Virus record (IMG/VR): IMGVR_UViG_3300001683_000019
Span: 1-50,367 of that record
Strand: one strand, 5' to 3'
Origin: a virus
Length of the DNA: 50,367 bases
Both the position numbers and the translations under genes were made by a program. Below, piece by piece: positions 15,141-45,417 of this stretch. Under the pieces are notes generated by a model. It saw only the letters and a program-made list of their open reading frames with translations. It did not search any database and was not told the origin of the DNA. Position 1 is the stretch's first letter, and every line of letters starts with the position of its first letter.

Positions 15141-15857
15141 ATGGTACAGAAATTTAAACAGTTCGTCGCCGAGGCAGGTGGCCAAGCCGCGGGAAAGATG
15201 GAACTGGTTAAGACTGATGTTTCTAAAGCCCGCGAACACGCGGAGAAGGCCTTTGCTGCCAAGGATAGAGTACTAGACGATGAACTTCCTGGATTCGATG
15301 CAGCATACAATAAGGCAAAAAAGATCGCAGGCAGCGGTAAGACGAAACGTAAAGACATGCCAGTCATTTCTGAAACGGATGTGAAGAATCTACAACGTTC
15401 ACTTAAGAGTGGTTCTATTGACATAAAGGCGCCCAGAACTAACTCAGGTAATCCATTCCCTAAAGGTCTTACAGCAGCAACAGGCAAGCAGTGGTTGGAA
15501 AATGGACTGAAGCGAAATGATGGTGAGTCAAAGGATGATGTTGTCAATGTTAAACTCGGCAAAGTAAAGATCGGCGATCTTAAACCAATTCAACAACAGA
15601 TCTATTTTGATAAGTCTGTAGGCGACATTGCTAATTTTGGTGCCGCAGGCACTAAGAGTTTCGCAACATCTAAGGGCAACACATTTATTATCTCATCCGA
15701 TAAGCGGATCATTGACGGACACCACAGGTATCTGGCCGGAGTACTGGTTGATCCATCTATGATGGTGAACGCACTGATTATCGATCTTCCTATCAAGGAA
15801 CTTTTACCTCTGACGCTGTCATATAGTGACGCGGTAGGTAATCAAAGAAATTCGTAA
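15141..15857 (+). CDS. ParB/sulfiredoxin-like domain protein with capsid-targeting-like N-terminus
   Basis: 238 residues. N-terminal KFKQFVAEA resembles the T4 capsid-targeting sequence of internal proteins (F-x-x-F-I-A-E-A). The C-terminal half has the ParB-like pattern: KIGDLKPIQQQIYFDKS, then a SDKRIIDGHHRYLAGVL block with the Asp-Gly-His-His-Arg motif. Such domains can have nuclease, NTPase or DNA-binding roles; which applies here is unknown. A strong AAGGAGAAAG ribosome-binding site precedes the ATG. Possible packaged internal protein. Confidence 0.7.
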   Translation: MVQKFKQFVAEAGGQAAGKMELVKTDVSKAREHAEKAFAAKDRVLDDELPGFDAAYNKAKKIAGSGKTKRKDMPVISETDVKNLQRSLKSGSIDIKAPRTNSGNPFPKGLTAATGKQWLENGLKRNDGESKDDVVNVKLGKVKIGDLKPIQQQIYFDKSVGDIANFGAAGTKSFATSKGNTFIISSDKRIIDGHHRYLAGVLVDPSMMVNALIIDLPIKELLPLTLSYSDAVGNQRNS

Positions 15858-16162: not shown

Positions 16163-17788
16163 ATGACTGCATTTTATACGAACGTAACACGCTCTGGAAA
16201 CTCTATATTATACCGTGGTATTGAAAACGGTGAACGAGTCCAGAAGAAAATCAAATATCAACCCACCCACTACATCTTTTCTAAAAAGAAATCAAAATAT
16301 AAATCCCTCTATGGTGATACTGTATCGCCTGTAGTCTTTGCTGATATGCGAGACGCGACGGAATTCCGCAAGAAGTATAAGGACGTCTCCAACTTCACAG
16401 TATATGGAATGGAGAATTATGTCTTCCAGTTCATCAGTGATGCGTTTCCTAAAGACGTTAAATTCGAGAAGGATCTTGTTAACATAACAACAATAGATAT
16501 CGAGGTCGCCACTGCCCAGTATGTACACTCTGGAAAGAAGATTGTTAAAGTTAGAAAAAAAACCGAGTTAATGATGAGTCTCGCCGAAGTGAGACAGAAC
16601 GAAGATGATTATGAAGTGTGGGATGAATCTAAAAAGGAATGGGTCGCATATAATGAATCTAAGTATGATGAAATGGAAGGTACGGGATTTCCTGAACCTA
16701 ATAGCGCAAGTAATGAAGTTACGGCAATTTGCTGTAAGAGTAATCTTAGCGAAACGTACTTTGTCTGGGCACTGGACGACTACGATCCTACCAAGAATGA
16801 AAAGGATGTCACATTCTTTCGGTGTGAAACTGAGTTGGATCTTCTTATGTCTTTCGTTGGATGGTGGAGTTCTGCTCCCAATATGCCTGATATTGTTACT
16901 GGATGGAATTCTAAACTCTTTGACATCAAGTATCTTGTTAATAGAATAACGAATCTGATAGGTATCGAGACTGCCAAGCGTCTATCGCCATGGGGTATGG
17001 TTGATGAACGCGTCACGCGCGTACAGTTAGGCAAATCATACCAAGAGGACTATTATTACGAACTGCGCGGCATTACGCAACTAGACTATCAGGAACTGTT
17101 CCTGAAGTTTGGTGTGCTCATCTACGGGCGACAAGAACGATACTCACTGGATCATATTGCCCAACAGGTACTAGGTCGAAAGAAGATCGACTACGGTGAG
17201 TACGGAACACTTCACGCCCTATACAAAGAGAACCATCAGTTGTTCATCGATTACAACATCGAAGACTGTGCATTGGTCGAGGGTATTGATAGCGAAACAG
17301 AATTAATCGATCTGGTCATGACGCTTTCATATAAGGCGAAATGTACCTATAGTGATGCGTTAGGAACTACAGGCATATGGGATGCTGTAATCTATAACGA
17401 ACTGAAGCAACAGGACATTGTGATCCCACCTAAGATTCATAAGACAGGCGATAAGATCGTTGGTGGATATGTCAAAGATCCAGTAATCGGGTTGAGTAAA
17501 CATGTCGCTTCTTTCGATTACGAAAGTCTGTATCCTAATATCATGGTGCAGTACAACATATCACCAGAGACCATGGTCGATATCAGTCAGGGTGGTGATG
17601 TAACGATCACTGCCAACTCCGCCCGCTTCCGACGGGATGCAGAGGGCATCTTCCCTCAGGTGATCAAGAAGTTCTATGGTGACAGGCGCGATGCGAAGAG
17701 ACGGAAACTCGATGCCCAACAACAATTGATTGAGATAGAAAAGGCAATCGCAAAATTGTATGAGTCTGGAAAACTAAATGAATTATGA
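16163..17788 (+). CDS. 43: DNA polymerase gp43, N-terminal part (exonuclease and palm N-half)
   Basis: 541 residues of a family B polymerase. The N-terminal MTAFYTNV matches family starts. 3'-5' exonuclease motifs: Exo I with D112 and E114 (TIDIEVA), Exo [14 protein letters not shown], Exo [12 protein letters not shown]. Polymerase motif A is DYESLYP (residues 452-458), followed by a [14 protein letters not shown] fingers helix. The frame ends at TGA 17786, within the fingers, and the rest of the enzyme continues in another frame from 17778. No Shine-Dalgarno is visible; a promoter -10 lies 6 nt upstream. Confidence 0.92.
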
Positions 17789-18863
17789 TGATATGACGCT
17801 CGAGGAACTAGAACTTCTTCGGGATGAGACTAAGACAGAAATTTCTGTTGCTGATAACCAGCAGATGGCAGTGAAAATTTTGCTCAATTCACTTTTCGGT
17901 AGTTGTGCCAACCAATATTTCAGATATTTTAATAGTACCCTGGCAGAGTCGGTGACGGTGAGTGGTCAACGTGCTATTCTCTTCGCCGAGGCAGCGATCA
18001 ATAAGGAGATGAATAAACTCCTAGAGACGACCGATGATGATTATGTGATTGCGATTGATACCGACTCGTTGTATGTCAACATGCATCCGTTGGTTGAAAA
18101 GTTCGAACCTAAAAACAGTATTAACTTTCTTGATAAGATTTGTAGTACACATTTCGCTGCTTGTCTGGAGAGTGCCTGTCAGAAACTATCAGACGCCACT
18201 AATGCATACGAGAACCGTATGATAATGGAGCGCGAGGTAATCGCATCATCAGGAATATGGACAGCAAAGAAACGATACATACTTCGCGTACATGATAACG
18301 AGGGTGTCCGATACGATAAACCCAAACTGAAGATCATGGGCATCGAGGCAATCAAGTCATCGACACCTCAGATCTGTCGTGATAAATTTCTAGAACTGTT
18401 CGAGATCATAATGGACGATGACGAGATTCTAACTCAGGAGTTTATTGCAGAATTCAAAAAGTTGTTCAAGACACTAGAACCGGAGGCAATCGCCTTTCCT
18501 CGTTCGGTGTCGAATGTTCGTAAGTACCATGATAGAAAGTATATCTATGGTAAAGGAACGCCTATACACTCGCGTGGTGCGTTACTGTACAATCACCACA
18601 TCAAGAAGAATCGACTAGACAAGAAGTATGAATTGATCAAGGACGGTGAGAAGATAAAGTTCATTTATCTGAAGCAACCGAACCCGATCAAAGAAAATGT
18701 TGTGACTTTTCCGCAAATTTTACCGCCAGAGTTGAAATTGCATGGTCATATAGACTATAATACTATGTATGAGAAAACTTTTCTCGATGGTCTAAAACCT
18801 ATCCTAGATTCCCTAGGGTGGACTGCCGAGGAAGTATCTACGCTGGATGCGTTTTTTGTATGA
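17778..18863 (+). CDS. 43: DNA polymerase gp43, C-terminal part (fingers/palm/thumb)
   Basis: 361 residues continuing the polymerase without a visible gap: motif [10 protein letters not shown] (33-41), motif C IDTDSLY with catalytic Asp 94 and 96, the KKRY motif, and a C-terminal TLDAFFV that fits the clamp-binding tail bound by gp45. A TAA immediately precedes its ATG in this frame, and the ATG overlaps the end of the first part by 11 nt. So either two subunits assemble, as described for some T4-like phages with split gene 43, or +1 frameshifting or a sequence error is involved. Confidence 0.92.
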
Positions 18864-25732: not shown

Positions 25733-28081
25733 ATGAAAAACAAAGACACCTTGGCAAGACTACTAGCGACCGAAAACATCACAGTGATGCATGCCGCTAC
25801 AAGCACTGCCAGTTTTGATCCAGTCAAGAGAATGTTGACACTACCTATTAGGACTGGTATCACACCAGAAATGATCGACATGTTCACTGGACATGAGGTC
25901 GGTCACGCATTGTGGACCGACGCTGATGGATGGGTAACAGCGATCAAAGCGGGTGGCCGTGTTTTTAAGGGTTATCTGAATGTCGTCGAAGATGCTCGGA
26001 TTGAAAAATTGATTCAGCGCAAATATCCTGGTCTCCGTAATGACTTCATCAAGTCGTATCGAGAACTTCTTACCAACGGATTTTTCGCTGGTGGTCTTAC
26101 TACTCCTACCCAGTTCAATTCTCTAGAGTTCATCGATAGAATAAATGTCCACTTCAAGTGTGGTGTATCGGCGGGTATTGAATTCTCTGTAATCGAGCAG
26201 GACTGGATTAAGCGTATCGCAAAACTTGAATCTTGGAAAGAAACTGTCACTTTGACAGAGGAACTCTTTAAGTTCTCGAAGGAACAGAAACAGAAAGAGA
26301 ACGATGAAACTGATCCTGGCGAAACTGACGAAAGCGAAGAAGGTGAAACTGAAACTGGCGAAACTGGCGAAGAAGGTGAAACTGGCGAAACTGGCGAAGA
26401 AGGTGAAACTGAAACTGACGAAGAAGGTGAAACTGAAACTGACGAAGAAGGTGAAGGTGAAACTGACGAAGAAGGTGAAACTGACGAAGAAGGTGAAGAA
26501 GGTGAAACTGGCGAAGAAGGTGAAACTGGGGATGATGTAAGTGAGTCATCTAACGGCGTTCCAAAATCATCGGATGATTTCGATGAGTCTGAAATTGAAT
26601 CCATTACTGACGAGTATCTTCGTGACAACATGGAATCATTAGGAACCGATTACGATGAAGATACTTGTGTATATAACCTAACGCTGCCCTCTGAGTCATT
26701 ACCCATTATCGGATTCAAGGACACAATCAATCTGGTTAATGGTCGTCACACTGGTCTATACCATGAGCGACCACAATTGTGGTTAGATCAAGTTCAGGTG
26801 GCAGACGATAGTCTACTACCAGACGGTACTAAGTTAATGAATTATGGTGAAGAACTGTATAAGACATACCTCGCAAAAAACAAAGCTCAAGTAAGTTACA
26901 TGGCGAAGGAATTCGAAACCAGGAAGAGTGCTGCTGAATATGCTCGAACACAAACATCCAAATCTGGGGTTATTGACTCTGTTAAGATGAATAACTATAG
27001 AACGACGGATGATATCTTTCGTCGTATGTCGTTTGTACCAGAAGGCAAGAATCACGGTTTTGTAATGTACTTAGACTGGTCTGGTTCAATGTGCGAACAC
27101 ATCAAGCCTACAATGGAACAAACAATGAATCTTGTTTTATTCTGTCGCATGATCGGTGTACCACATAGGGTTTATGCTTTTACTGATGTTGCACTTTCAC
27201 GAAATACATCTGGACCCAAATGGAATGCCCAATGCGATACAGTCACATGTACAGAGGGCAATATTGTGTATGATGACACTGCTGGACTAATTGAACTCTT
27301 TTCCGATAAAATGAGAAAGTCTGAATTTCGCGATATGTCTAGGATCGCACTTGCCCTTGCAGATGTGCAATCAACAGGCAAAAAATACGGCAGGATGGGT
27401 TACCGTGACTTTCCCCCACAACTTAGTCTAGGTTCAACGCCACTCGACGATACGATAATATCCGCTCGGATTATTTACAAGCAATTCAAGGCGCAGTATA
27501 ATCTGGACATCGTTAACACTTTCTTTTTATCAGACGGCGATAGTAATACCTGTGAGACCACACTTACCTCGCCAAACGGGGCGTTGCAACGATACGCAGT
27601 TGGTCGATACGTGAGTAAACACTCAAGTTCGACATGGGGAACTAATGTCTTTACGACTATCATCGATCCTATCACCTCGAAGTCCTTCGATTTGACGAGA
27701 AATCCCGAAGCGGGCCCGTACCAATCGGTGACAGTCTCACTTATGGACATCTTCAGAGAGACTACGGGTGGTAATGCCATCGGTTATATGATTACGTATT
27801 CGAAAACATCGGATGTGTATCACCTCGCCGGCGTCTCATACAATGCCGCGCCAGAGCTCTGTAAGGAAATGAGAAAGAACGGGTATGTTAAGGTTGGTTC
27901 AGAGACTGGATATTCTGCACTGTTTCTGATCAATTCAAAGAAAATGAAAACCGGAGAATCTGGCCTCGATATCGAACAGGGCGCCGCAAAAGGTGCAGTG
28001 AAATTAGCATTCCGCAGGAATCAGAGGGACAAAAAGTTCTCTCGCCCCATGTTGAATGAATTAGTCACTCTGGTGGCATAA
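25733..28081 (+). CDS. zinc-metallopeptidase-like / VWA domain protein (CobT-like partner)
   Basis: 782 residues. N-terminal HEVGH (54-58) with a downstream VVEDARIEKL that could supply the third ligand suggests a zincin fold. Residues about 190-265 are an acidic repeat of GEETGE-type units encoded by GAAGAAGGTGAAACTG repeats. The C-terminal half is a VWA domain with MIDAS DWSGS at 448-452 and a FFLSDGDSNTC block. Cobaltochelatase CobT also has an acidic linker and VWA domain. The MoxR/CobS-like ATPase gene follows, each with its own early promoter. The substrate is unknown. A terminator stem overlaps its stop codon. Confidence 0.8.
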   Translation: MKNKDTLARLLATENITVMHAATSTASFDPVKRMLTLPIRTGITPEMIDMFTGHEVGHALWTDADGWVTAIKAGGRVFKGYLNVVEDARIEKLIQRKYPGLRNDFIKSYRELLTNGFFAGGLTTPTQFNSLEFIDRINVHFKCGVSAGIEFSVIEQDWIKRIAKLESWKETVTLTEELFKFSKEQKQKENDETDPGETDESEEGETETGETGEEGETGETGEEGETETDEEGETETDEEGEGETDEEGETDEEGEEGETGEEGETGDDVSESSNGVPKSSDDFDESEIESITDEYLRDNMESLGTDYDEDTCVYNLTLPSESLPIIGFKDTINLVNGRHTGLYHERPQLWLDQVQVADDSLLPDGTKLMNYGEELYKTYLAKNKAQVSYMAKEFETRKSAAEYARTQTSKSGVIDSVKMNNYRTTDDIFRRMSFVPEGKNHGFVMYLDWSGSMCEHIKPTMEQTMNLVLFCRMIGVPHRVYAFTDVALSRNTSGPKWNAQCDTVTCTEGNIVYDDTAGLIELFSDKMRKSEFRDMSRIALALADVQSTGKKYGRMGYRDFPPQLSLGSTPLDDTIISARIIYKQFKAQYNLDIVNTFFLSDGDSNTCETTLTSPNGALQRYAVGRYVSKHSSSTWGTNVFTTIIDPITSKSFDLTRNPEAGPYQSVTVSLMDIFRETTGGNAIGYMITYSKTSDVYHLAGVSYNAAPELCKEMRKNGYVKVGSETGYSALFLINSKKMKTGESGLDIEQGAAKGAVKLAFRRNQRDKKFSRPMLNELVTLVA
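26303..26530 (+). repeat. in-frame low-complexity repeat encoding acidic Glu/Thr/Gly stretch
   Basis: Degenerate tandem units of 9-15 bp based on GAAGGTGAAACTGGCGAA. They keep the reading frame and encode an acidic linker between the peptidase-like and VWA parts. Units of this kind change copy number easily by slippage. Confidence 0.85.
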
Positions 28082-34605: not shown

Positions 34606-34668
34606 ATGTTAAATACGTTCCAACAGTTCATCACTGAACAAAAGAACACCCATATGACGCACCTTTGA
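34606..34668 (+). other. N-terminal leader of the DUF6267-like gene, ended by in-frame TGA
   Basis: ATG 34606 has the strongest ribosome-binding site of the window (AAGGAGGT) and encodes MLNTFQQFITEQKNTHMTHL, then TGA. The same frame continues LEDKVIYGGANGTRQ into the main gene. Homologues as I remember them run NTHMEHLED without interruption, so a 6-base insertion containing the TGA fits. TGA is followed by C, a leaky context. Confidence 0.65.
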
Positions 34669-34734
34669 CTTGAAGATAAAGTCATCTACGGTGGAGCGAA
34701 CGGCACGCGACAAGCGATCAATGCCCTGCGTGGT

Positions 34735-35838
34735 ATGAGAGATATGCTTGGCGGGAAACACGCGGGCACTGTGTCCGTTAAGTGGGATGGTGCGCCTGCT
34801 GTCTTTGCCGGCACTGACCCTAGTGATGGGAGATTCTTTGTTGCCAAGAAAGGTATCTTTAACAAGAACCCAAAGGTCTACAAGACACCTCAGGAGGTCG
34901 ACGACGACACATCTGGTGATCTTGCCGACAAACTAAAAGCAGCACTGAAGTATCTTCCTGAACTAGGAATTAAGGGTGTGCTCCAAGGCGATCTCATGTT
35001 CGGTCCGGGTGATGTTAAAGTTGAGACGATTGATACTAAGAAGTATGTCACGTTTCATCCTAATACAATCCTGTATGCTGTACCTTACGAACAAGCGAAG
35101 TCAGTCAGACAAGCGAAGATCGGCATCGTATGGCACACGTCTTATACAGGTTCGTCGTTCGAGACAATGAAGGCGTCGTTTAATGCGGATGCTTCTAGTC
35201 TTAAAAAATCGAAGAACGTATGGTATCAAGATTCTAATCTCAAGAATCTAGAACGTGCTACCTTGAGTAAGAAAGAGACCGAGCAAGTCAATCAGTACCT
35301 GTCACAGATAGGCAAACTGTTCAACAACATAAGCGGTACGACTCTGAGACAACTAGAGGGACACCCGGAACTAACTCAGACGATAGAGACGTTTAGTAAT
35401 ACATTCGTGCGCAAGGGTGAGATAATGAAGAACCCAACCGCGCACACAACAGCACTGATCCGATACATCAAGACCAAGTATAAGAAAGAGATCGATAAAC
35501 GTAAGTCTGAGAAGGGTAAGAAAGCGCAGCGCGACAAACTATCCTCTATTCTCACATTCTTTTCGGATGAGAATAAACTCTCTCTGATCAAACTGTTCGA
35601 ACTCCAGCGATTGATCGTTGTGGTTAAACTCATTCTCATCAAAAAACTCAACAGTCTATCATCTATAGATACTTTTGTACGAACGAAGGACGGTTATAAG
35701 GTAACAGGTGACGAAGGATACGTTGCTATTGACAAGATGTCAGGCGGTGCTTTGAAACTGGTCGACCGGATGCAATTTTCATATTCCAACTTCTCGCCGG
35801 ATATAATAAAAGGTTGGGAATCTGCTTCTAGGAATTAA
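34735..35838 (+). CDS. DUF6267-like phage protein (5' end interrupted)
   Basis: 367 residues from the first ATG after the TGA at 34666; the true protein probably starts at 34606 and is about 410 residues. Conserved blocks: VKWDGAPAVFAGTDP, RFFVAKKGIFNKNPKVY, LKGVLQGDLMFGPGD-like and YVTFHPNTILYAVPYEQA. The KWDGAPAVF and later KGVLQGD blocks recall the nucleotidyltransferase fold of ligases, but I would not call an activity. Late region, with a capsid-targeting-like N-terminus upstream (TFQQFITEQ). Confidence 0.75.
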   Translation: MRDMLGGKHAGTVSVKWDGAPAVFAGTDPSDGRFFVAKKGIFNKNPKVYKTPQEVDDDTSGDLADKLKAALKYLPELGIKGVLQGDLMFGPGDVKVETIDTKKYVTFHPNTILYAVPYEQAKSVRQAKIGIVWHTSYTGSSFETMKASFNADASSLKKSKNVWYQDSNLKNLERATLSKKETEQVNQYLSQIGKLFNNISGTTLRQLEGHPELTQTIETFSNTFVRKGEIMKNPTAHTTALIRYIKTKYKKEIDKRKSEKGKKAQRDKLSSILTFFSDENKLSLIKLFELQRLIVVVKLILIKKLNSLSSIDTFVRTKDGYKVTGDEGYVAIDKMSGGALKLVDRMQFSYSNFSPDIIKGWESASRN

Positions 35839-35928: not shown

Positions 35929-36378
35929 ATGCCTCTTAATACGTTTAGTCAGTTCGTCGCGCAGGAATCCCCGAGCGAAGCAAACAAAACAGAAGTTGAA
36001 GACCTAGACCTTCTCGACGAAGAAGAACTAGACGAAGCACCAGGGAACAATGCTCGAACTCTCAGCATTTCCCAGCGACGCATGGCAGGTCGACGTCTCA
36101 GGCGAATGAAGGGTCGCATCAAGATCGCACGAAAACGCGCACTCAAACGCGCTGCCAATCCAGCGACTCTTAAGAAACGCGCCAAGCGTTCCGTCCGTAC
36201 AACACTATTCACCAAATTCTCTCGCGGTAAGGCGAAGAAGGACGTTGGTCTTGCCCGACGCGCTGGTATTGAACGACGCGTCAACAGAATATCCAAGAGC
36301 AGGGTCGCAGCGATGACCAAACGACAAGTGAGAGGCACCCGACAAATTGATCGTGCGCGGAGAATGCATAAAAAATGA
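35929..36378 (+). CDS. highly basic internal-protein candidate
   Basis: 149 residues. N-terminus MPLNTFSQFVAQESPS resembles a capsid-targeting sequence; an acidic segment follows (VEDLDLLDEEELDEAPG, about 22-38); the rest is an extreme Arg/Lys-rich helical domain (RRMAGRRLRRMKGRIKIARK onwards). This layout fits a packaged DNA-binding head protein with a removable acidic pro-segment, analogous to T4 internal proteins, but the role is inference. ATGA overlap with the next gene. Confidence 0.7.
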   Translation: MPLNTFSQFVAQESPSEANKTEVEDLDLLDEEELDEAPGNNARTLSISQRRMAGRRLRRMKGRIKIARKRALKRAANPATLKKRAKRSVRTTLFTKFSRGKAKKDVGLARRAGIERRVNRISKSRVAAMTKRQVRGTRQIDRARRMHKK

Positions 36379-37349
36379 AGAACGTCTCATCGTTTAAACA
36401 ATATCTGAAGGAAGAACAGAAAGAGGCATATTTCACTTTCGGTCGTCTCAATCCTCCTACAATAGGCCACGGTAAACTACTGGGCGCACTGGCAGCAAAG
36501 GCAGGCAAAGGCACGTACAAAGTTTTTCTGTCGCAGTCCCAAGACGACAAGAAGAATCCATTATCTTACGAACAAAAAGTTAAGCATGTTCGTAAAATGT
36601 TTCCTAAGTTCGGTCGTAACGTTATCTTGAACAGAAAGATCAAGACAGTTTTCGATATCGCCACGCTGCTTTACGATCAAGGCAACAACCGCATCACTAT
36701 GGTGGTAGGATCAGATCGGATCACTGAGTTCAAAACACTCTTAGACAAGTACAACGGCGTCAAGGGTAAACACGGGTTCTACAACTTCGAGAAGATCAAC
36801 GTCGCATCCGCGGGTGATCGCGACCCAGACTCTAACGATGTTTCTGGTATGTCAGCGTCTAAGCAAAGAAAGAACGCTGCTAACAACGACTTCACGACGT
36901 TCTCACAGGGTCTACCGTCCACGTTGTCTGCTAAGGACGCCAAGCGACTATTCAACGACATTCGTGTGGCAATGGGACTTAAAGAAACTGTAGAATTCAA
37001 GCATCACGTTGAACTAGAATCGGTGTCAGACATCCGAGAGAAGTATGTCTCTGGTGAACTGTTCAACGAAGATGATCGAGTCATGATTAAGAGTTCAAAC
37101 AAAAAGGGATATGTACATAGACTAGGAGCAAACTATTTAATCGTCGCCCTAGATGAAGGAAGAATATCCCGCCAGTGGTTGGATAACGTAGTTGCTATCG
37201 AAGAGAAGAAAACAGATGACTGGTATCCTGACCAACCAGAGTGGGGTACAAAGAGAGCGACCGACTCAGCAAAGACAGATACCCCAGGCGAAAAAGTTAA
37301 TCTAGCCAAGGCTAAGAAATTAGTCTCTAAGCGTAAAAAAGGAATATAA
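36375..37349 (+). CDS. nucleotidyltransferase-like protein with capsid-targeting-like N-terminus
   Basis: 324 residues. After SSFKQYLKEEQ the fold begins EAYFTFGRLNPPTIGHGKLL, the GRxxPxTxGH motif of cytidylyl/adenylyltransferases such as NadM, with VVGSDRI and the GMSASKQRKNAA motif (SxxK/R type). This predicts transfer of AMP or CMP to a phosphate-bearing substrate. The C-terminal third has a KOW/SH3-like barrel (DDRVMIKSSNKKGYVHRLGANY) and a basic tail. Late cluster. Confidence 0.75.
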   Translation: MKNVSSFKQYLKEEQKEAYFTFGRLNPPTIGHGKLLGALAAKAGKGTYKVFLSQSQDDKKNPLSYEQKVKHVRKMFPKFGRNVILNRKIKTVFDIATLLYDQGNNRITMVVGSDRITEFKTLLDKYNGVKGKHGFYNFEKINVASAGDRDPDSNDVSGMSASKQRKNAANNDFTTFSQGLPSTLSAKDAKRLFNDIRVAMGLKETVEFKHHVELESVSDIREKYVSGELFNEDDRVMIKSSNKKGYVHRLGANYLIVALDEGRISRQWLDNVVAIEEKKTDDWYPDQPEWGTKRATDSAKTDTPGEKVNLAKAKKLVSKRKKGI

Positions 37350-37358: not shown

Positions 37359-39254
37359 ATGCGAAATTTCAACGAAGCAAAACAAACTCCATTCCAGACC
37401 ATGCAGGATATCGTTAAGAATTCCCAAGCGAAGAAGATCGAAGGAAAGATGGTAGACACGTTTACTGCATCCGCGATCACACAGGCATATGCTAAAGTTA
37501 ATGACAAAAATAAGAAAAGAATCGAAACGTCTAACCTATCAACGCTTGTTAACCTCGCACATAAGATAATGGGTGGTGGTTCTAAAAACGAAGCAACGGA
37601 AATGAACGAGAGTATGTCCCCTGCGATGTTTGCTGATCTGAAGAAAGGTGATCGTCTACAGATTAAGTTTGATTCACCTATGGCCAAAGGCAATTCAGGT
37701 AGTTTCGTTGTCTCTTTTAAGTCTAAGTCCAAGAAGTATAATCTCGAAAAGGTTACATTGACGAAGGACAAGAAAGGTCCAGGCGTGAAGTATTACCTCT
37801 ACAATCGTAATGGTAAAGTGTCGATGGCACAGGGCGACATGGCGGTATCACTCACTAATGTGGTTAAAGAGTCTACAGAGAATAAAGAAGTGATTGAAGG
37901 GAGTAAAATCGTTAAGAAAGCATTAAATCCAGACAAACCATTGACCAGGCGTCAAAAGGATAAGCTTAAGCGCGACGCGCGCGGTAAGATTTGTACGGAT
38001 ATACACAATCGTTCATTAATGAAAGAAGCATTCAAAGTCGGTGATTATGAATTAGAAGAAGGTACATGGAAAATGCCTAAAAATAATAAACAAATCGCTC
38101 CTCTTATGAAACTAATGAAAAAACCTATTAAGTTAGGTAAAGACGGTGATGCTGCTATTGATGTTATAGAACCCTATATAGGTGATGACGAGTTATATGA
38201 TGATTTATATGATGCTGGTAAGAAAAATCCAAATGGTGATGCAAGGCCTATTATTAAGGATGCTTTAAGACGGTTTGGTTTCAAAGAAGAAGTGTCCGTT
38301 GATGAACTTAGCACTAAGACTTTGCAAAGTTACTCAGATAAGTCATGGAAAAACAAGAAGCGTAGTAAAGGTGTCAAGACTGCTGCTGGTAAAATCGTTA
38401 AGAAAGCATTAATGAAAGAAGCATTCAAAGTCGGTGATTTTGTATTGGTAAACACTGGTCCACATAAGGGTGAGAAGCATGAGATCATCCATGTCAAACC
38501 AGGCGGTGGATACAATGTCATACCAGTCGGGTTAATGGCGCGGGACATCAAATACAAACTCGGTGCTGCTGGTGCCAAGGCATCGAATGTGTCTGTCTGG
38601 AAAGAGTCTGTTGAACAGGTTGACGAGGGAAAGGTTGGTATCTACAGAAAATCAAATAGTCCAGCATACGATGGTGAAGATGCCCATAACTCAGCAAGAC
38701 ATACGCTTGTAAAACGTGCTGGTAAGCATCTCACATTCAAGAACGAAGCACAGGCAAAGGCATGGATCAAGAAGAACACCACTGCCGGCAAGGAATTCCT
38801 TTTCAGGAAAGTGAGCAAGTCGGTCAAAGAGTCTGTTGAGCAGATCGATGAACTAACAGACAAGCAGAAGGCAGAGATCGCAAAGCGCAAAGCAATGCGA
38901 CAGGGACAAGCAGCGAAGAAGAAAGAAAAGACTGCTGCCAAGAAAGCGGCCGCTGAGAAGAAGAAGAAAGATAATCCTAATGCTCGGGGAGAGTATCTTG
39001 ACGCTGCGGACAAGGGTCTGATTATGCAGTTGAGATCTGCCGAAGATATCAGTAACGAGAAGGAACATCCAATAACTTTCCGTCGAGGAAAGACAGAGAA
39101 AGTTCCACATGAAGATGTAAAGGCAGTGCTTTCTTTCCATGATGCACTCAAGAAACCAGACGACAAACGCCGATTAAAAATTCAACTTGCTAAAGGCGGA
39201 GCAACTGCTGCTAAGAAACTGGCAGACGTTTATCGAAAAACTGCAGGTAAATAA
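37359..39254 (+). CDS. large modular late protein with repeated KESVEQ-type linkers
   Basis: 631 Lys-rich residues built from modules: a beta domain (KKGDRLQIKFDSPMAKGN), a segment with LNPDKPLTRRQKDKLKRDARG, two copies of LMKEAFKVGD leading different domains, a VDELSTKTLQSYSDKS motif seen in many large phages, a KOW-like VLVNTGPHKGEKHEI barrel, and a C-terminal coiled, Lys/Ala-rich region. Modules are joined by KESVEQVDEG, KESVEQIDEL and related sequences with V/I/L-x-E sites like those cut by T4 prohead protease gp21. I infer a head-packaged polyprotein; no direct homologue is known to me. Confidence 0.65.
   Translation: MRNFNEAKQTPFQTMQDIVKNSQAKKIEGKMVDTFTASAITQAYAKVNDKNKKRIETSNLSTLVNLAHKIMGGGSKNEATEMNESMSPAMFADLKKGDRLQIKFDSPMAKGNSGSFVVSFKSKSKKYNLEKVTLTKDKKGPGVKYYLYNRNGKVSMAQGDMAVSLTNVVKESTENKEVIEGSKIVKKALNPDKPLTRRQKDKLKRDARGKICTDIHNRSLMKEAFKVGDYELEEGTWKMPKNNKQIAPLMKLMKKPIKLGKDGDAAIDVIEPYIGDDELYDDLYDAGKKNPNGDARPIIKDALRRFGFKEEVSVDELSTKTLQSYSDKSWKNKKRSKGVKTAAGKIVKKALMKEAFKVGDFVLVNTGPHKGEKHEIIHVKPGGGYNVIPVGLMARDIKYKLGAAGAKASNVSVWKESVEQVDEGKVGIYRKSNSPAYDGEDAHNSARHTLVKRAGKHLTFKNEAQAKAWIKKNTTAGKEFLFRKVSKSVKESVEQIDELTDKQKAEIAKRKAMRQGQAAKKKEKTAAKKAAAEKKKKDNPNARGEYLDAADKGLIMQLRSAEDISNEKEHPITFRRGKTEKVPHEDVKAVLSFHDALKKPDDKRRLKIQLAKGGATAAKKLADVYRKTAGK
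37903..38439 (+). repeat. dispersed direct repeats marking module shuffling
   Basis: Block A (24 bp, GTAAAATCGTTAAGAAAGC plus TTAA) occurs at 37903-37926 and 38389-38412. Block B (33 bp, starting CATTAATGAAAGAAGC) occurs at 38014-38046 and 38407-38439. At the second site A and B are fused; at the first they are separated by about 90 bp. Confidence 0.85.
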
Positions 39255-39628: not shown

Positions 39629-40660
39629 ATGAACAACGACGATTTAAACGAATTGGTCGAAGACAACACAAACGACAAGTCTGACGACGGTGAAGGTATG
39701 GACAAAGTTCAACCTAAGGCGTTGAATAAGAAATTCAAGAAGAGAAAGGATAAGGACATCGATAATGATGGCGATACTGATTCTTCTGATGAGTATCTCC
39801 ATAAGCGTCGAAAGGCAATCAGTAAGAACGTAGACGAAGCTGCGTCGAAGTTCTCTGCCAAAGAAATCAAGATGGCCGTGGGAATACCCTTCGATAAGAG
39901 ATATAAAGGCACTAATTATTCCGGTGCTGAAGCAGCAATCGAAAAGATTAAGACTGGTCTATCAGATCACCCTAAAGTTGCAGATGCGCTTAAGCGCGCG
40001 AACGAAGCGGTCGTTCTTACTGTCCAGCATCCTACATGGGGATACGGTGAGGTTCTAGAGAATCTCGAAGACGATATGTCCGAAGTATTATTCGAACACG
40101 GTGTTGAAAGTGTTGGTCTGGTTGATGTGGATATCCTAGCATATGATGAGGGAGAAGACTTCACCGAAGAACTAGAAGCAGCGTTGGAAGAATCTCTCGA
40201 TGAGAAGTCTGTTGACCTTGAAGAAGGTAAGATGAAAGAGTTTCATGCTATGGTAAAGCAAGGCATGACTGCCGCACAGATTGCTAAGAAGATTGGCATG
40301 AAAGAGAAAGATGTTGCGGAGTTTATGAAAAGTATGAAGGAATCTGTCGATCTTGACAAGTTACCTATGAGTGAAGCGACTGAGATCGAACAAGAGTTTA
40401 ATGATGTATACACTCTCCGCATGAATAGTTATGCCAATGCGATGAAGAGAATGTGGGAATCTAAAAATTCTCCTCAGACTAAGAACGCAGCACCTGGAGA
40501 AGACAAGGACGTGGAACGCGAACTTGATGGTAAGAAGATCAAGAAACTCCACCGCGATAATGTCAAAGACGATGACACTGAAGAGAAGAGTCATGATGAT
40601 GCTTTGAAAGCAGCGAGTGCAACTAAGCAGGCACCTACGCGCAGGGGTGATAACAGGTAA
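39629..40660 (+). CDS. acidic late protein with EF-hand-like loop
   Basis: 343 residues, strongly acidic. KDKDIDNDGDTDSSDEYLHKRRKA (about 40-63) contains a D-x-D-x-D-G-D-x calcium-loop pattern that recurs in proteins of marine T4-like phages. Further on: VQHPTWGYGEV, an acidic ELEAALEESLDEK segment and KMKEFHAMVKQGMTAAQIAKKIGMKEKDV, a helix-turn-helix-like stretch, then MKESVDLDKL related to the KESV linkers of the previous large protein. AAAGGAG precedes the ATG. Possible prohead core or internal protein. Confidence 0.65.
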   Translation: MNNDDLNELVEDNTNDKSDDGEGMDKVQPKALNKKFKKRKDKDIDNDGDTDSSDEYLHKRRKAISKNVDEAASKFSAKEIKMAVGIPFDKRYKGTNYSGAEAAIEKIKTGLSDHPKVADALKRANEAVVLTVQHPTWGYGEVLENLEDDMSEVLFEHGVESVGLVDVDILAYDEGEDFTEELEAALEESLDEKSVDLEEGKMKEFHAMVKQGMTAAQIAKKIGMKEKDVAEFMKSMKESVDLDKLPMSEATEIEQEFNDVYTLRMNSYANAMKRMWESKNSPQTKNAAPGEDKDVERELDGKKIKKLHRDNVKDDDTEEKSHDDALKAASATKQAPTRRGDNR

Positions 40661-42255: not shown

Positions 42256-42906
42256 ATGAAAGGTTTCAAGCAATTCGCAGAGTCAATGGACCATAAGTCC
42301 GACAACGAACTTCTGAAGATATCTAGATCGACGCACCCGCATGCCGCCGGAGCGATGGTTGCTCTCAAGAAACGTGGAGTAAAGGTACACAATCCTGCTA
42401 CTGGCAAGAAAGAGTCTGTTGAAGAGAGTAAGAACAACTATACAGAGAAAGTCACCATGGGCAAACCCGAGGTGGGATCTGGTTATGAAGATGATGGTTC
42501 TTCTATTATAAGTTATGATATTTTTTATGGTAAAACATTAATTGGCCAAGTGGAAGATGGAAGAGAATATGATGGACAAATCAATATCTCAATCGACAAA
42601 ATTGATCGCAGTAACAAAAACAGCGGATATGACCTTCTCAAGTTTGTCACCAAAAAAGATGCCGACGAACGTGATGCTCGATCAGGAGTCAGTAAATTCC
42701 TCAAAACACCATCTGGCAAAAAATGGACTGTATCCGCAGTAAAATCGGCGGGGATAAAAGAAGAAGGAGATCCAACCAGTACATCTGATGTTGTAGGCAC
42801 TGGCGATGATGTGGCAGATTGGAAGACAAAGAAGAAGAAGAAATCATCGGTCGTAACGCGGCACTATATAGAAGTCAACGGTAAAAGAAAGAAGCAGACT
42901 AAATAA
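42256..42906 (+). CDS. late protein with capsid-targeting-like N-terminus and KESVEE linker
   Basis: 216 residues. N-terminus MKGFKQFAESMDHKSDNELL fits the F-x-Q-F-x-E pattern; AMVALKKRGVKVHNPATGKKESVEESK gives a repeated linker; a central beta domain follows; the C-terminus has DPTSTSDVVGTGDDVADWK then a Lys-rich tail. Possible internal head protein. A near copy of its first codons starts 41 nt upstream (MKGFKQHHIERIIT, ending in TGA that overlaps this ATG). Confidence 0.65.
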   Translation: MKGFKQFAESMDHKSDNELLKISRSTHPHAAGAMVALKKRGVKVHNPATGKKESVEESKNNYTEKVTMGKPEVGSGYEDDGSSIISYDIFYGKTLIGQVEDGREYDGQINISIDKIDRSNKNSGYDLLKFVTKKDADERDARSGVSKFLKTPSGKKWTVSAVKSAGIKEEGDPTSTSDVVGTGDDVADWKTKKKKKSSVVTRHYIEVNGKRKKQTK

Positions 42907-43485: not shown

Positions 43486-45417
43486 ATGCCCAGCAATTAC
43501 CTTCCATCACTTTATCAGGAATTTATACATTTGTCGCGTTACTCTAGGTGGTTACCTGAAGAAGAACGGCGCGAAACGTGGGAAGAAACGATTGATCGAT
43601 ATTTCAATTTCTTTGAAGAGCACCTCCAAGAGTCATGTGATTATAAGATGCCTAAGAGTCTCCGAAAGGAACTCGAAGAGGCAGTCCTAGTACAAAAAGT
43701 TATGCCTTCGATGCGATGTCTAATGACCGCAGGCGAAGCACTCAAACGTGAAAACGTTGCAGGATATAACTGCGCGTATATTGCTGTGGACAAACCCCAG
43801 AGTTTTGACGAGATCCTTTATGTACTAATGAATGGTACAGGTGTAGGATTCAGCGTAGAACGTCAGAACCTTGCAAAGATGCCATCCGTTGCTGAAGAAT
43901 TCCATGAGACAGACACAACGATTGTTGTTGCCGACAGCAAACTCGGTTGGGCAAAATCGTTGAAAGAACTTATCGGTCTTCTATATGCCGGACAGATTCC
44001 ACAATGGGACATGAGTAAAGTTCGGCCGAGCGGCGCACCCCTAAAAACATTCGGTGGTCGTGCGTCTGGTCCAGACCCTCTCGATGAACTGTTCAGATTC
44101 TGCGTGGCCAAGTTCACCAGTGCTGCAGGACGACGATTAAACTCTACTGAGTGTCATGACATCGTTTGTAAGATTGCAGAGATTGTGGTCGTTGGTGGTG
44201 TGCGCCGCTCTGCGTTGATCTCACTGTCTAATCTATCAGACGATAGGATGCGTCACGCGAAGTCTGGTGAATGGTGGCATGCAGAAGGACAACGACGCCT
44301 GGCAAATAACTCTGCGGTATATACTGGGAAACCTGATACTGGTATCTTCATGGACGAGTGGAAATCACTGTACGAGTCTAAGTCTGGTGAGCGCGGTATC
44401 TTCAATCGAGAAGCGGCCAATATGGTGTCTGCTAGAAGTGGTCGTCGCATCATAGACGGTTGGGAGTATGGTACTAATCCATGCTCCGAAATCATACTTC
44501 GCTCCAGACAGTTCTGTAATCTATCAGAGGTCGTTGTACGCGCGAGTGATACGGTTGAGTCTCTGAAAGAAAAGGTCAGACTAGCGACAATTCTAGGAAC
44601 GTTCCAGTCAACTCTAACCAACTTCAAATATCTTTCTAGTTCATGGAAAAACAACTGCGAAGAAGAACGATTACTTGGTGTGTCTATGACAGGTATCATG
44701 GACAATGTCCTAACCACCGGAAAGAAAGGCGACCTAGGCGCACTGCTGGATGAACTTCAACTAGTTGCGATTGAAACTAATGCATGGTTGTCAAAGAAAC
44801 TTGGTGTCAACCAGTCTGTGGCAACCACATGTGTGAAACCTTCAGGAACAGTTTCGCAATTAGTAGATGCCGCGTCTGGTATTCATGCGAGACACAACCC
44901 TCGCTATGTTCGTACAGTTCGCGCAGACAAAAATGATCCTTTAACACAATTCATGGTTGACCAAGGTTTTCCTGTTGAGGACGATGTAGCGTCACCTGCG
45001 ACAACAAGCGTGTTCTCTTTCCCTATGAAGTGCGATAAAAACGCTGTGTTCCGTACCGACATGTCTGCTATTGAACAACTAGAAATGTGGTTGGTCTATC
45101 AGAAGCATTGGTGCGAACATAAACCTTCTGTCACTATCTCTGTTAAGGAAGACGAGTGGATGGATGTGGGAGCATGGGTCTATAAGAACTTTGATTGGAT
45201 GTCGGGTGTTAGTTTTCTTCCGTTCGATGGAGGTACATATAGACAGGCGCCGTACCAAGACTGCACCTCGGCCGACTATGATGAGTTGTTAAGTCGACTA
45301 CCAAAGACAGTTGATTGGTCAGGTCTTTCTAAGTTCGAACTCGAAGACAGCACAGTCGGTGCTCAAACCTTAGCCTGCGCCAGTGGCGTGTGTGAAATAG
45401 TCGATCTGGTGAAATAG
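43486..45417 (+). CDS. nrdJ: class II (cobalamin-dependent) ribonucleoside-triphosphate reductase
   Basis: 643 residues, monomeric RTPR type. NCAYIAVD and GTGVGFSVERQNL open the ten-stranded barrel; NPCSEIILRSRQFCNLSEV carries the active-site N-x-x-x-E and thiyl-radical Cys pattern; ATTCVKPSGTVSQL follows; the C-terminus has the redox pair CASGVC spaced as in Lactobacillus RTPR. It makes deoxynucleotides for phage DNA using adenosylcobalamin, independent of oxygen. Own promoter upstream and GGAG before the ATG. Overlaps the next gene by one base. Confidence 0.93.
   Translation: MPSNYLPSLYQEFIHLSRYSRWLPEEERRETWEETIDRYFNFFEEHLQESCDYKMPKSLRKELEEAVLVQKVMPSMRCLMTAGEALKRENVAGYNCAYIAVDKPQSFDEILYVLMNGTGVGFSVERQNLAKMPSVAEEFHETDTTIVVADSKLGWAKSLKELIGLLYAGQIPQWDMSKVRPSGAPLKTFGGRASGPDPLDELFRFCVAKFTSAAGRRLNSTECHDIVCKIAEIVVVGGVRRSALISLSNLSDDRMRHAKSGEWWHAEGQRRLANNSAVYTGKPDTGIFMDEWKSLYESKSGERGIFNREAANMVSARSGRRIIDGWEYGTNPCSEIILRSRQFCNLSEVVVRASDTVESLKEKVRLATILGTFQSTLTNFKYLSSSWKNNCEEERLLGVSMTGIMDNVLTTGKKGDLGALLDELQLVAIETNAWLSKKLGVNQSVATTCVKPSGTVSQLVDAASGIHARHNPRYVRTVRADKNDPLTQFMVDQGFPVEDDVASPATTSVFSFPMKCDKNAVFRTDMSAIEQLEMWLVYQKHWCEHKPSVTISVKEDEWMDVGAWVYKNFDWMSGVSFLPFDGGTYRQAPYQDCTSADYDELLSRLPKTVDWSGLSKFELEDSTVGAQTLACASGVCEIVDLVK

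Follow-up and report, generated by a model that had tools for sequence, protein, structure and literature searches.

Introduction

When a T4-like phage infects a new host cell, its small internal head proteins are among the first to act; these proteins diverge rapidly. In phage T4, the internal proteins IPI, IPII, IPIII and Alt are each encoded by their own gene and carry one N-terminal propeptide. The T4 prohead protease gp21 cleaves behind L/I-x-E, a motif that also ends the capsid targeting sequence of the internal proteins (PMC9026906). T4 gp22, gp67 and gp68 are also cut by gp21 into several fragments (PMC9026906; PMC5694885). For the inner-body and ejection proteins of phages phiKZ, 201phi2-1 and SPN3US, a gp21 relative cuts after Glu, several of these proteins being cut at multiple sites; the phiKZ sites are of the S/A-x-E type, and the SPN3US cuts mostly take off N-terminal propeptides. 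The accessible parts of these reports mention neither a repeated linker array nor module shuffling. The polyvalent proteins of phages and conjugative elements such as plasmids (Iyer et al. 2017) combine several domains per polypeptide, and their presumed destination is the host cell; they contain recognisable enzymatic and conflict domains, often including a peptidase of their own, and no protease site recurs in their linkers.

Here we describe P0001, a modular protein of 631 residues encoded at 37359..39254 (+, open frame from ATG to stop) in the window, the whole stretch of DNA analysed, which is a virus record of 50,367 bases. Its genes are arranged as in marine T4-like phages, with polymerase, clamp, helicase and UvsX followed by a late cluster. 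We consider it probable that P0001 is an internal-head cargo polyprotein of T4 type, which gp21 would cut into separate small domains. P0001 resembles the T4 internal proteins in its hydrophobic-x-Glu sites, small basic putative cargo, rapid turnover between phages, the presence of the same protease family in the genomes of relatives, and several cluster genes with targeting-type N-termini. Unlike the T4 proteins, P0001 chains many candidate cargo domains in one polypeptide, with internal sites at which exchange takes place. With gp22, gp67 and gp68 it has in common a single precursor carrying several gp21-type sites. These are scaffold proteins mostly cut to small peptides, whereas P0001 has predicted folded, exchangeable domains between its sites, and relatives encode gp22 separately. 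The Glu-ending sites are shared with the phiKZ group, and the repeated linker array and module shuffling set the P0001 family apart from it. S-CREM2 gp160 and S-RIM2 SWRG_00089 have a CW..NCV module in common with the polyproteins, and gp160 is found in virions; unlike the polyproteins, both have fewer modules and no ESVEQ[VI]DE consensus linkers. No earlier account of repeated protease-site linkers with module exchange was found in the open-access literature searched, and the family reads as a variant of the T4 internal-protein system.

Repeated linkers of P0001

P0001 contains KESVEQVDEG once, KESVEQIDEL once and LMKEAFKVGD twice. The near-identical linkers reported in the preliminary description were thus found in the sequence as given, and their repetition was far above chance: eight 6-mers are repeated, against a mean of 0.04 and a maximum of 3 in 2000 shuffles. 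With a position-weight matrix of the linkers, for which the window was left out of training, three matches were obtained among the 68 window ORFs, all three in P0001, with 0.15 expected from shuffled sequences. The related linkers pointed out in neighbouring proteins, KKESVEESK in the gene at 42256 and MKESVDLDKL in the gene at 39629, are also present, but are looser than those of P0001. As to the proposal that the linkers carry V/I/L-x-E sites of gp21 type, I-D-E is the only one among the linkers it listed that obeys the strict L/I-x-E rule of T4 (PMC9026906), V-D-E and M-K-E being relaxed versions. Strict sites in P0001 are IDE/LT (residue 498) and LEE/GT (residue 234), and relaxed sites are VDE (316 and 423) and MKE (223 and 354); slashes here mark the bond after the glutamate. 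V and M at P3 are departures from the published T4 rule.

Repetition was also observed at DNA level. A 40-nt repeat coding for LMKEAFKVGD is located at 38014..38053 (+; site MKE/AF, residue 223) and, with 95% identity, at 38407..38446 (+; site MKE/AF, residue 354). A 24-nt exact direct repeat coding for KIVKKAL lies at 37903..37926 and 38389-38412 (+), and a 26-nt repeat of 85% identity starts at 38601 and 38826.

Module map and predicted structure

The modules and linkers of P0001, all on the plus strand, are arranged as follows. The N-terminal MRNFNE (37359..37376) ends with the candidate cleavage site FNE/AK at residue 6. M1 (37377..37583, aa 7-75) is a helical module of the VDxFTASAIxQxYxKVNDKNKK family, with pLDDT of 90-96 over aa 11-70. 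M2 (37611..37868, aa 85-170) is beta-rich (LKKGD...AQGDMAV; pLDDT 88-96 over aa 91-170), and is also present in proteins of Melnitz and C48C1. A helical segment at aa 181-222 (37899..38024) follows VIE/GS; no relatives of this segment were found in the comparison with related proteins. M3 (38061..38288, aa 235-310; pLDDT 80-97 over aa 241-310) belongs to the EGTW...GDDELYDDLYDAGKKNPNGDARP family, and is placed differently in loci L143, L145, L146 and L077; four different settings of M3 were observed. The linker KEEVSVDE (38283..38306; site VDE/LS, residue 316) leads into M4 (38307..38417, aa 317-353, LSTKTLQSY...GKIVKKAL), of which the L031 relative stands directly after EDAEQVDE. M5 (38421..38603, aa 355-415) has a KOW-like sequence, as judged from a sub-threshold Pfam match, and is 88% identical in the near relative L002. 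The linker ESVEQVDE (38604..38627; site VDE/GK, residue 423) precedes M6 (38628..38828, aa 424-490), in place of which L002 carries an unrelated segment, and ESVEQIDE (38829..38852; site IDE/LT, residue 498, the strict T4 motif) precedes the C-terminal M7 (38853..39251, aa 499-631). M7 is helical with a small beta part (pLDDT mostly 80-91), and its relative is the C-terminal module also in L016, L017, L027 and L029. The linkers are strongly acidic (-0.53 charge per residue), and the modules are net basic (+0.09).

An AlphaFold2 model of P0001 was built from 19 aligned sequences. Four confident domains were predicted (aa 11-71, 85-170, 240-305 and 500-628), with a pTM of 0.31. The linkers at 316, 423 and 498 fall in 10-residue blocks with mean pLDDT of 42, 30 and 53, where the low confidence at 311-496 partly reflects that M4-M6 are almost without relatives, the disorder there being uninformative. 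The linkers in the model are located in disordered stretches between domains and are not buried in one fold, the arrangement that the preliminary description had named as refuting its reading. P0001 is thus predicted to have the general features of a processed polyprotein, that is, independent domains with exposed, repeated candidate sites.

Searches of Pfam, PHROG and PDB with P0001 gave nothing above threshold, and Foldseek against PDB gave no match with E < 0.001. Pfam and PHROG searches of the relatives detected DUF5824, DUF7230 and mostly unnamed PHROGs, one stretch associated with a cytidyltransferase PHROG being DUF5824. The small-barrel, KOW-like and helix-turn-helix-like sequences may point to a nucleic-acid-binding function of the modules. 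The best named viral fold match was Klebsiella phage KP15 D5JFF7 (probably KP15_109, matched by length only). This candidate was rejected; it resembles small beta-barrel proteins in general, and no module HMM matches KP15.

Exchange of modules at linkers

By scanning viral contigs, we detected the same phage (L001, 100%), the near relative L002 and about 20 more loci. The proteins of this family are 300 to 1,300 residues long with up to eight linkers each, and have single modules in common but not the overall order. In two pattern scans at DNA level, 43 loci were found with ORFs containing at least three linkers at a median spacing of 85 residues; a few of these loci were already among the relatives. 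A nucleotide search of a phage collection detected no relatives of the window, and tblastn of the collection with the polyprotein of the relative G001 found no relative. As judged from the contig scans, the family is widespread and hypervariable among T4-like marine phages.

The blocks between ESVEQ[VI]DE linkers are reshuffled in L017, L016, L027, L029, L030 and L032, with orders such as H-C-K in L032, C-U-D-H-.-A in L027 and C-D-O-P-A in L016. M1 is N-terminal in the window, whereas L011, L012, L143 and L145 have it in the interior of the protein, and in L010, L070 and Melnitz it stands at or close to the C-terminus. With linkers masked, 73 of 243 homology-block ends were located at linkers, against 28.1 +/- 6.0 expected, and without masking 88 of 280, against 39.0 +/- 7.1; neither count was reached in any of 2000 rotations, the counts coming from related proteins and thus being not fully independent. 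When a linker profile built from other phages was applied to G001 (138.6 kb), ten matches were obtained (0.25 expected), seven of them in the 1003-residue polyprotein and three in the 398-residue product of the next-but-one gene; the remaining 192 ORFs gave no match.

The most direct comparison is that between the window and L002. The window reads MRNFNE/AKQTPFQ, while L002 reads MRNFNE/ARSEYT...EQLDE/AKQTPFQ; the difference is an extra module of 143 residues in L002, both ends of which fall between Glu and Ala, at the 9-nt repeat ACGAAGCAA common to the two. Two more middle blocks differ likewise, between linker-like ends. Linkers of one gene use the same codon at a frequency of 0.72, against 0.49 expected from codon usage, indicating a relationship at DNA level, so that they could act as recombination junctions. 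These alignments indicate that modules are gained, lost and reordered at linkers between relatives.

The module DAWRALTGKQKxVIAKVHKLTQTDDELGKLYRDG is part of the polyprotein in L017 (1401-5321) and L027, and of the adjacent DNDGD gene in L016 (11389-12606), so that modules also cross between adjacent genes.

Targeting N-termini and candidate cleavage sites

Relatives G001 and G003 encode both gp21 and gp23; the two genes lie outside the 50-kb window, and are assumed for the window phage from these relatives. The gp23 of the relatives has L-x-E where T4 gp23 is cut (GFLTE/TAPT, SLLE/APTN), the position being assigned by comparison with T4.

A basic protein is encoded near P0001 (35929..36378, +). 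Its relatives stand behind a targeting-type N-terminus in C48C1, Melnitz, L065 and others, with the junctions MLSFKQFVSE/VLDATQRR, MKKFSELTSELIE/RKAVSMTQRR and MKTFSEFINE/RVVSVVQRK, and behind an ESVEQVDE-type linker in L016, L027 and L031, with the junctions ESVEQVDE/AFSVAQRI, ESVEQTDE/AYTVAQRI and ETEHLDE/VLSISGRR. In both settings the homology of the basic module begins directly past the Glu, and P3 is mostly V, L or I. Likewise, one module of the polyprotein in L019 has a free-standing counterpart in KVP40, an 83-residue gene product with the targeting-type start MQGFKDYF. Since these two modules are found in both settings, it seems that a mature domain can be preceded equally well by a linker or by a targeting sequence. 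The unannotated 83-residue gene of KVP40 (L137:5995-6246, Vibrio phage KVP40.0154) is a candidate for an internal head protein of that phage.

The start of P0001 itself, MRNFNE/AK, is a weak match to the targeting sequence of T4; a clear targeting start is also absent from several other polyproteins. Good targeting N-termini were found in the window genes at 15141, 34606 and 36375. Over whole genomes, nine were counted in C48C1 (1.9 expected) and six in G001 (1.1 expected), only partly in the polyprotein locus, and these counts are thus taken as weak support. Sites of [VILMF]-x-E type account for 3.5% of the residues outside the core and 0.6% of those within it (p = 0.009); conditional on Glu, which is itself commoner in linkers, p is 0.12. 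The gene at 15141-15857, in the replication region far from the cluster, encodes a 238-residue protein with the clear targeting-type start MVQKFKQFVAE/AGG.

These observations bear on the reading that P0001 has several domains but is never cleaved, and is either packaged or produced early in the infected cell, like polyvalent proteins, with linkers serving only as flexible joints and recombination junctions. Fusions of many small domains are common in phage conflict proteins (PMC5512222), and the codon likeness of the linkers could be explained by shared descent and recombination alone. A plain joint, however, need not retain a hydrophobic-x-Glu ending, and the homology of the basic module begins past the Glu even behind a targeting N-terminus. 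Moreover, Pfam and PHROG searches detected no enzymatic or conflict domains, and no self-processing peptidase domain, in P0001 and its relatives. We thus regard an uncleaved protein as rather unlikely. Membership in the polyvalent class proper was rejected, because recognisable peptidase, ART, nuclease, primase and methylase domains are all absent by Pfam and PHROG.

Cutting of T4 gp22, gp67 and gp68 into several fragments, together with the strong acidity of the P0001 linkers, could also be taken to mean that P0001 is a head core (scaffold) protein of this kind, cut at its linkers for clearance and leaving fragments without a later job. This is improbable. A separate gp22 is encoded next to gp21 in G001 and G003, and in G001 gp22 lies at 69731-70777, while the polyprotein lies at 132811-135822; a core scaffold would be expected next to gp20-gp21-gp23, and to be acidic and coiled. 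In addition, the modules carry a net basic charge, are modelled as folded with confidence and are conserved elsewhere as separate genes, and dozens of unrelated, fast-exchanged domains would be needless for a scaffold.

Gene neighbourhood and virion proteins

Directly upstream of P0001, a cytidylyltransferase-like protein with the targeting-type N-terminus MKNVSSFKQYLKE is encoded (36375..37349, +). Its S-SM1 homologue SSM1_190 (T4-GC190) was found in purified virions (PMC3037559); it is 38% identical to the window protein over 319 residues and starts with MKKFSAFLNE/A. The S-CREM2 homologue gp154 is 34% identical and starts with MKNFSSFLTE/A. The starts of both homologues resemble T4 targeting sequences. 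Virions of S-CREM2 contain gp154, gp155, gp156 and gp160 (PMC10665884), of which gp160 is a mosaic with the CW..NCV module of L003 and L005, having one module in common with the polyprotein family.

Downstream, a 343-residue acidic protein with a DIDNDGD motif and MKESVDLDKL is encoded at 39629..40660 (+), its G001 counterpart carrying ESVEQVDE-type linkers, and a 216-residue protein with the N-terminus MKGFKQFAES and KKESVEESK at 42256..42906 (+). That P0001 is a cytoplasmic early or late protein outside the virion, its protease-site likeness being incidental to an acidic coil, is very unlikely: P0001 itself is without proteomic detection and metabolic genes occur among its neighbours (ribonucleotide reductase at 43486-45417), but in cyanophages the cytidylyltransferase in syntenic position and the genes next to it encode virion proteins, replication and metabolic genes are without linkers, and targeting-type N-termini cluster at the polyprotein locus in C48C1.

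The calcium-loop-like motif DIDNDGDTDSSDEY of the 39629-40660 protein is conserved across marine T4-like phages, including SSM1_191 of S-SM1. SSM1_191 is annotated as cytidyltransferase, yet its sequence contains no cytidyltransferase motif.

A DUF6267 gene (KxDG nucleotidyltransferase-like) with the targeting-type N-terminus MLNTFQQFITE lies at 34606..35838 (+). The gene is divided into stretches at 34606-34668 and 34735-35838. Its in-frame stop at 34666-34668 falls just after the targeting start, where the window has THMTHL*LEDK and C48C1 has THMTHIEDK. The stop could be a real interruption, a point of re-initiation or a sequence error.

Proposed processing of P0001

As a cargo polyprotein of T4 type, P0001 would be produced as one chain of about seven small, mostly basic domains, which would enter the prohead core. 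There gp21, the prohead protease that matures gp23, would cut past the linker glutamates at [V/I/L/M]-x-E, and several independent small proteins would stay in the head, probably in association with DNA. The freed domains would then pass into the host with the DNA. The linker-coding DNA would double as the junction for module exchange, so that the cargo could change with folds intact. In the preliminary description, P0001 was taken as a polyprotein whose modules are released inside the head; its modular architecture, linkers between predicted domains, gp21-like sites and head-gene context find support in independent comparisons, while packaging, cutting by gp21, release and ejection are steps that we infer. 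More tentatively, at slightly under even odds, we propose that the family represents a cassette array of cargo, in which the DNA of the protease site is the recombination junction, cassettes are gained, lost or reordered in frame, and each cassette works once freed in the head.

If this is true, a polyprotein packing many small internal proteins at once and swapping them at the cut sites would explain how abundant marine phages alter the cargo that they inject. A simple rule, [V/I/L]-x-E linkers in this gene cluster, would then allow open databases to be searched for candidate cargo domains, many of them still without annotation. The polyprotein would also represent a natural design for loading several proteins per capsid, a modular effector-loading system resting on the gp21 maturation pathway.

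Other features of the window

The DNA polymerase gp43 is seemingly split into two overlapping ORFs, 16163-17788 (541 residues) and 17778-18863 (361 residues). The ORF at 25733-28081 encodes a predicted peptidase of 782 residues (phrog_459) with a long Gly-Glu-Thr repeat insert at about residues 195-275, which resembles the collagen-like stretches of tail fibres.
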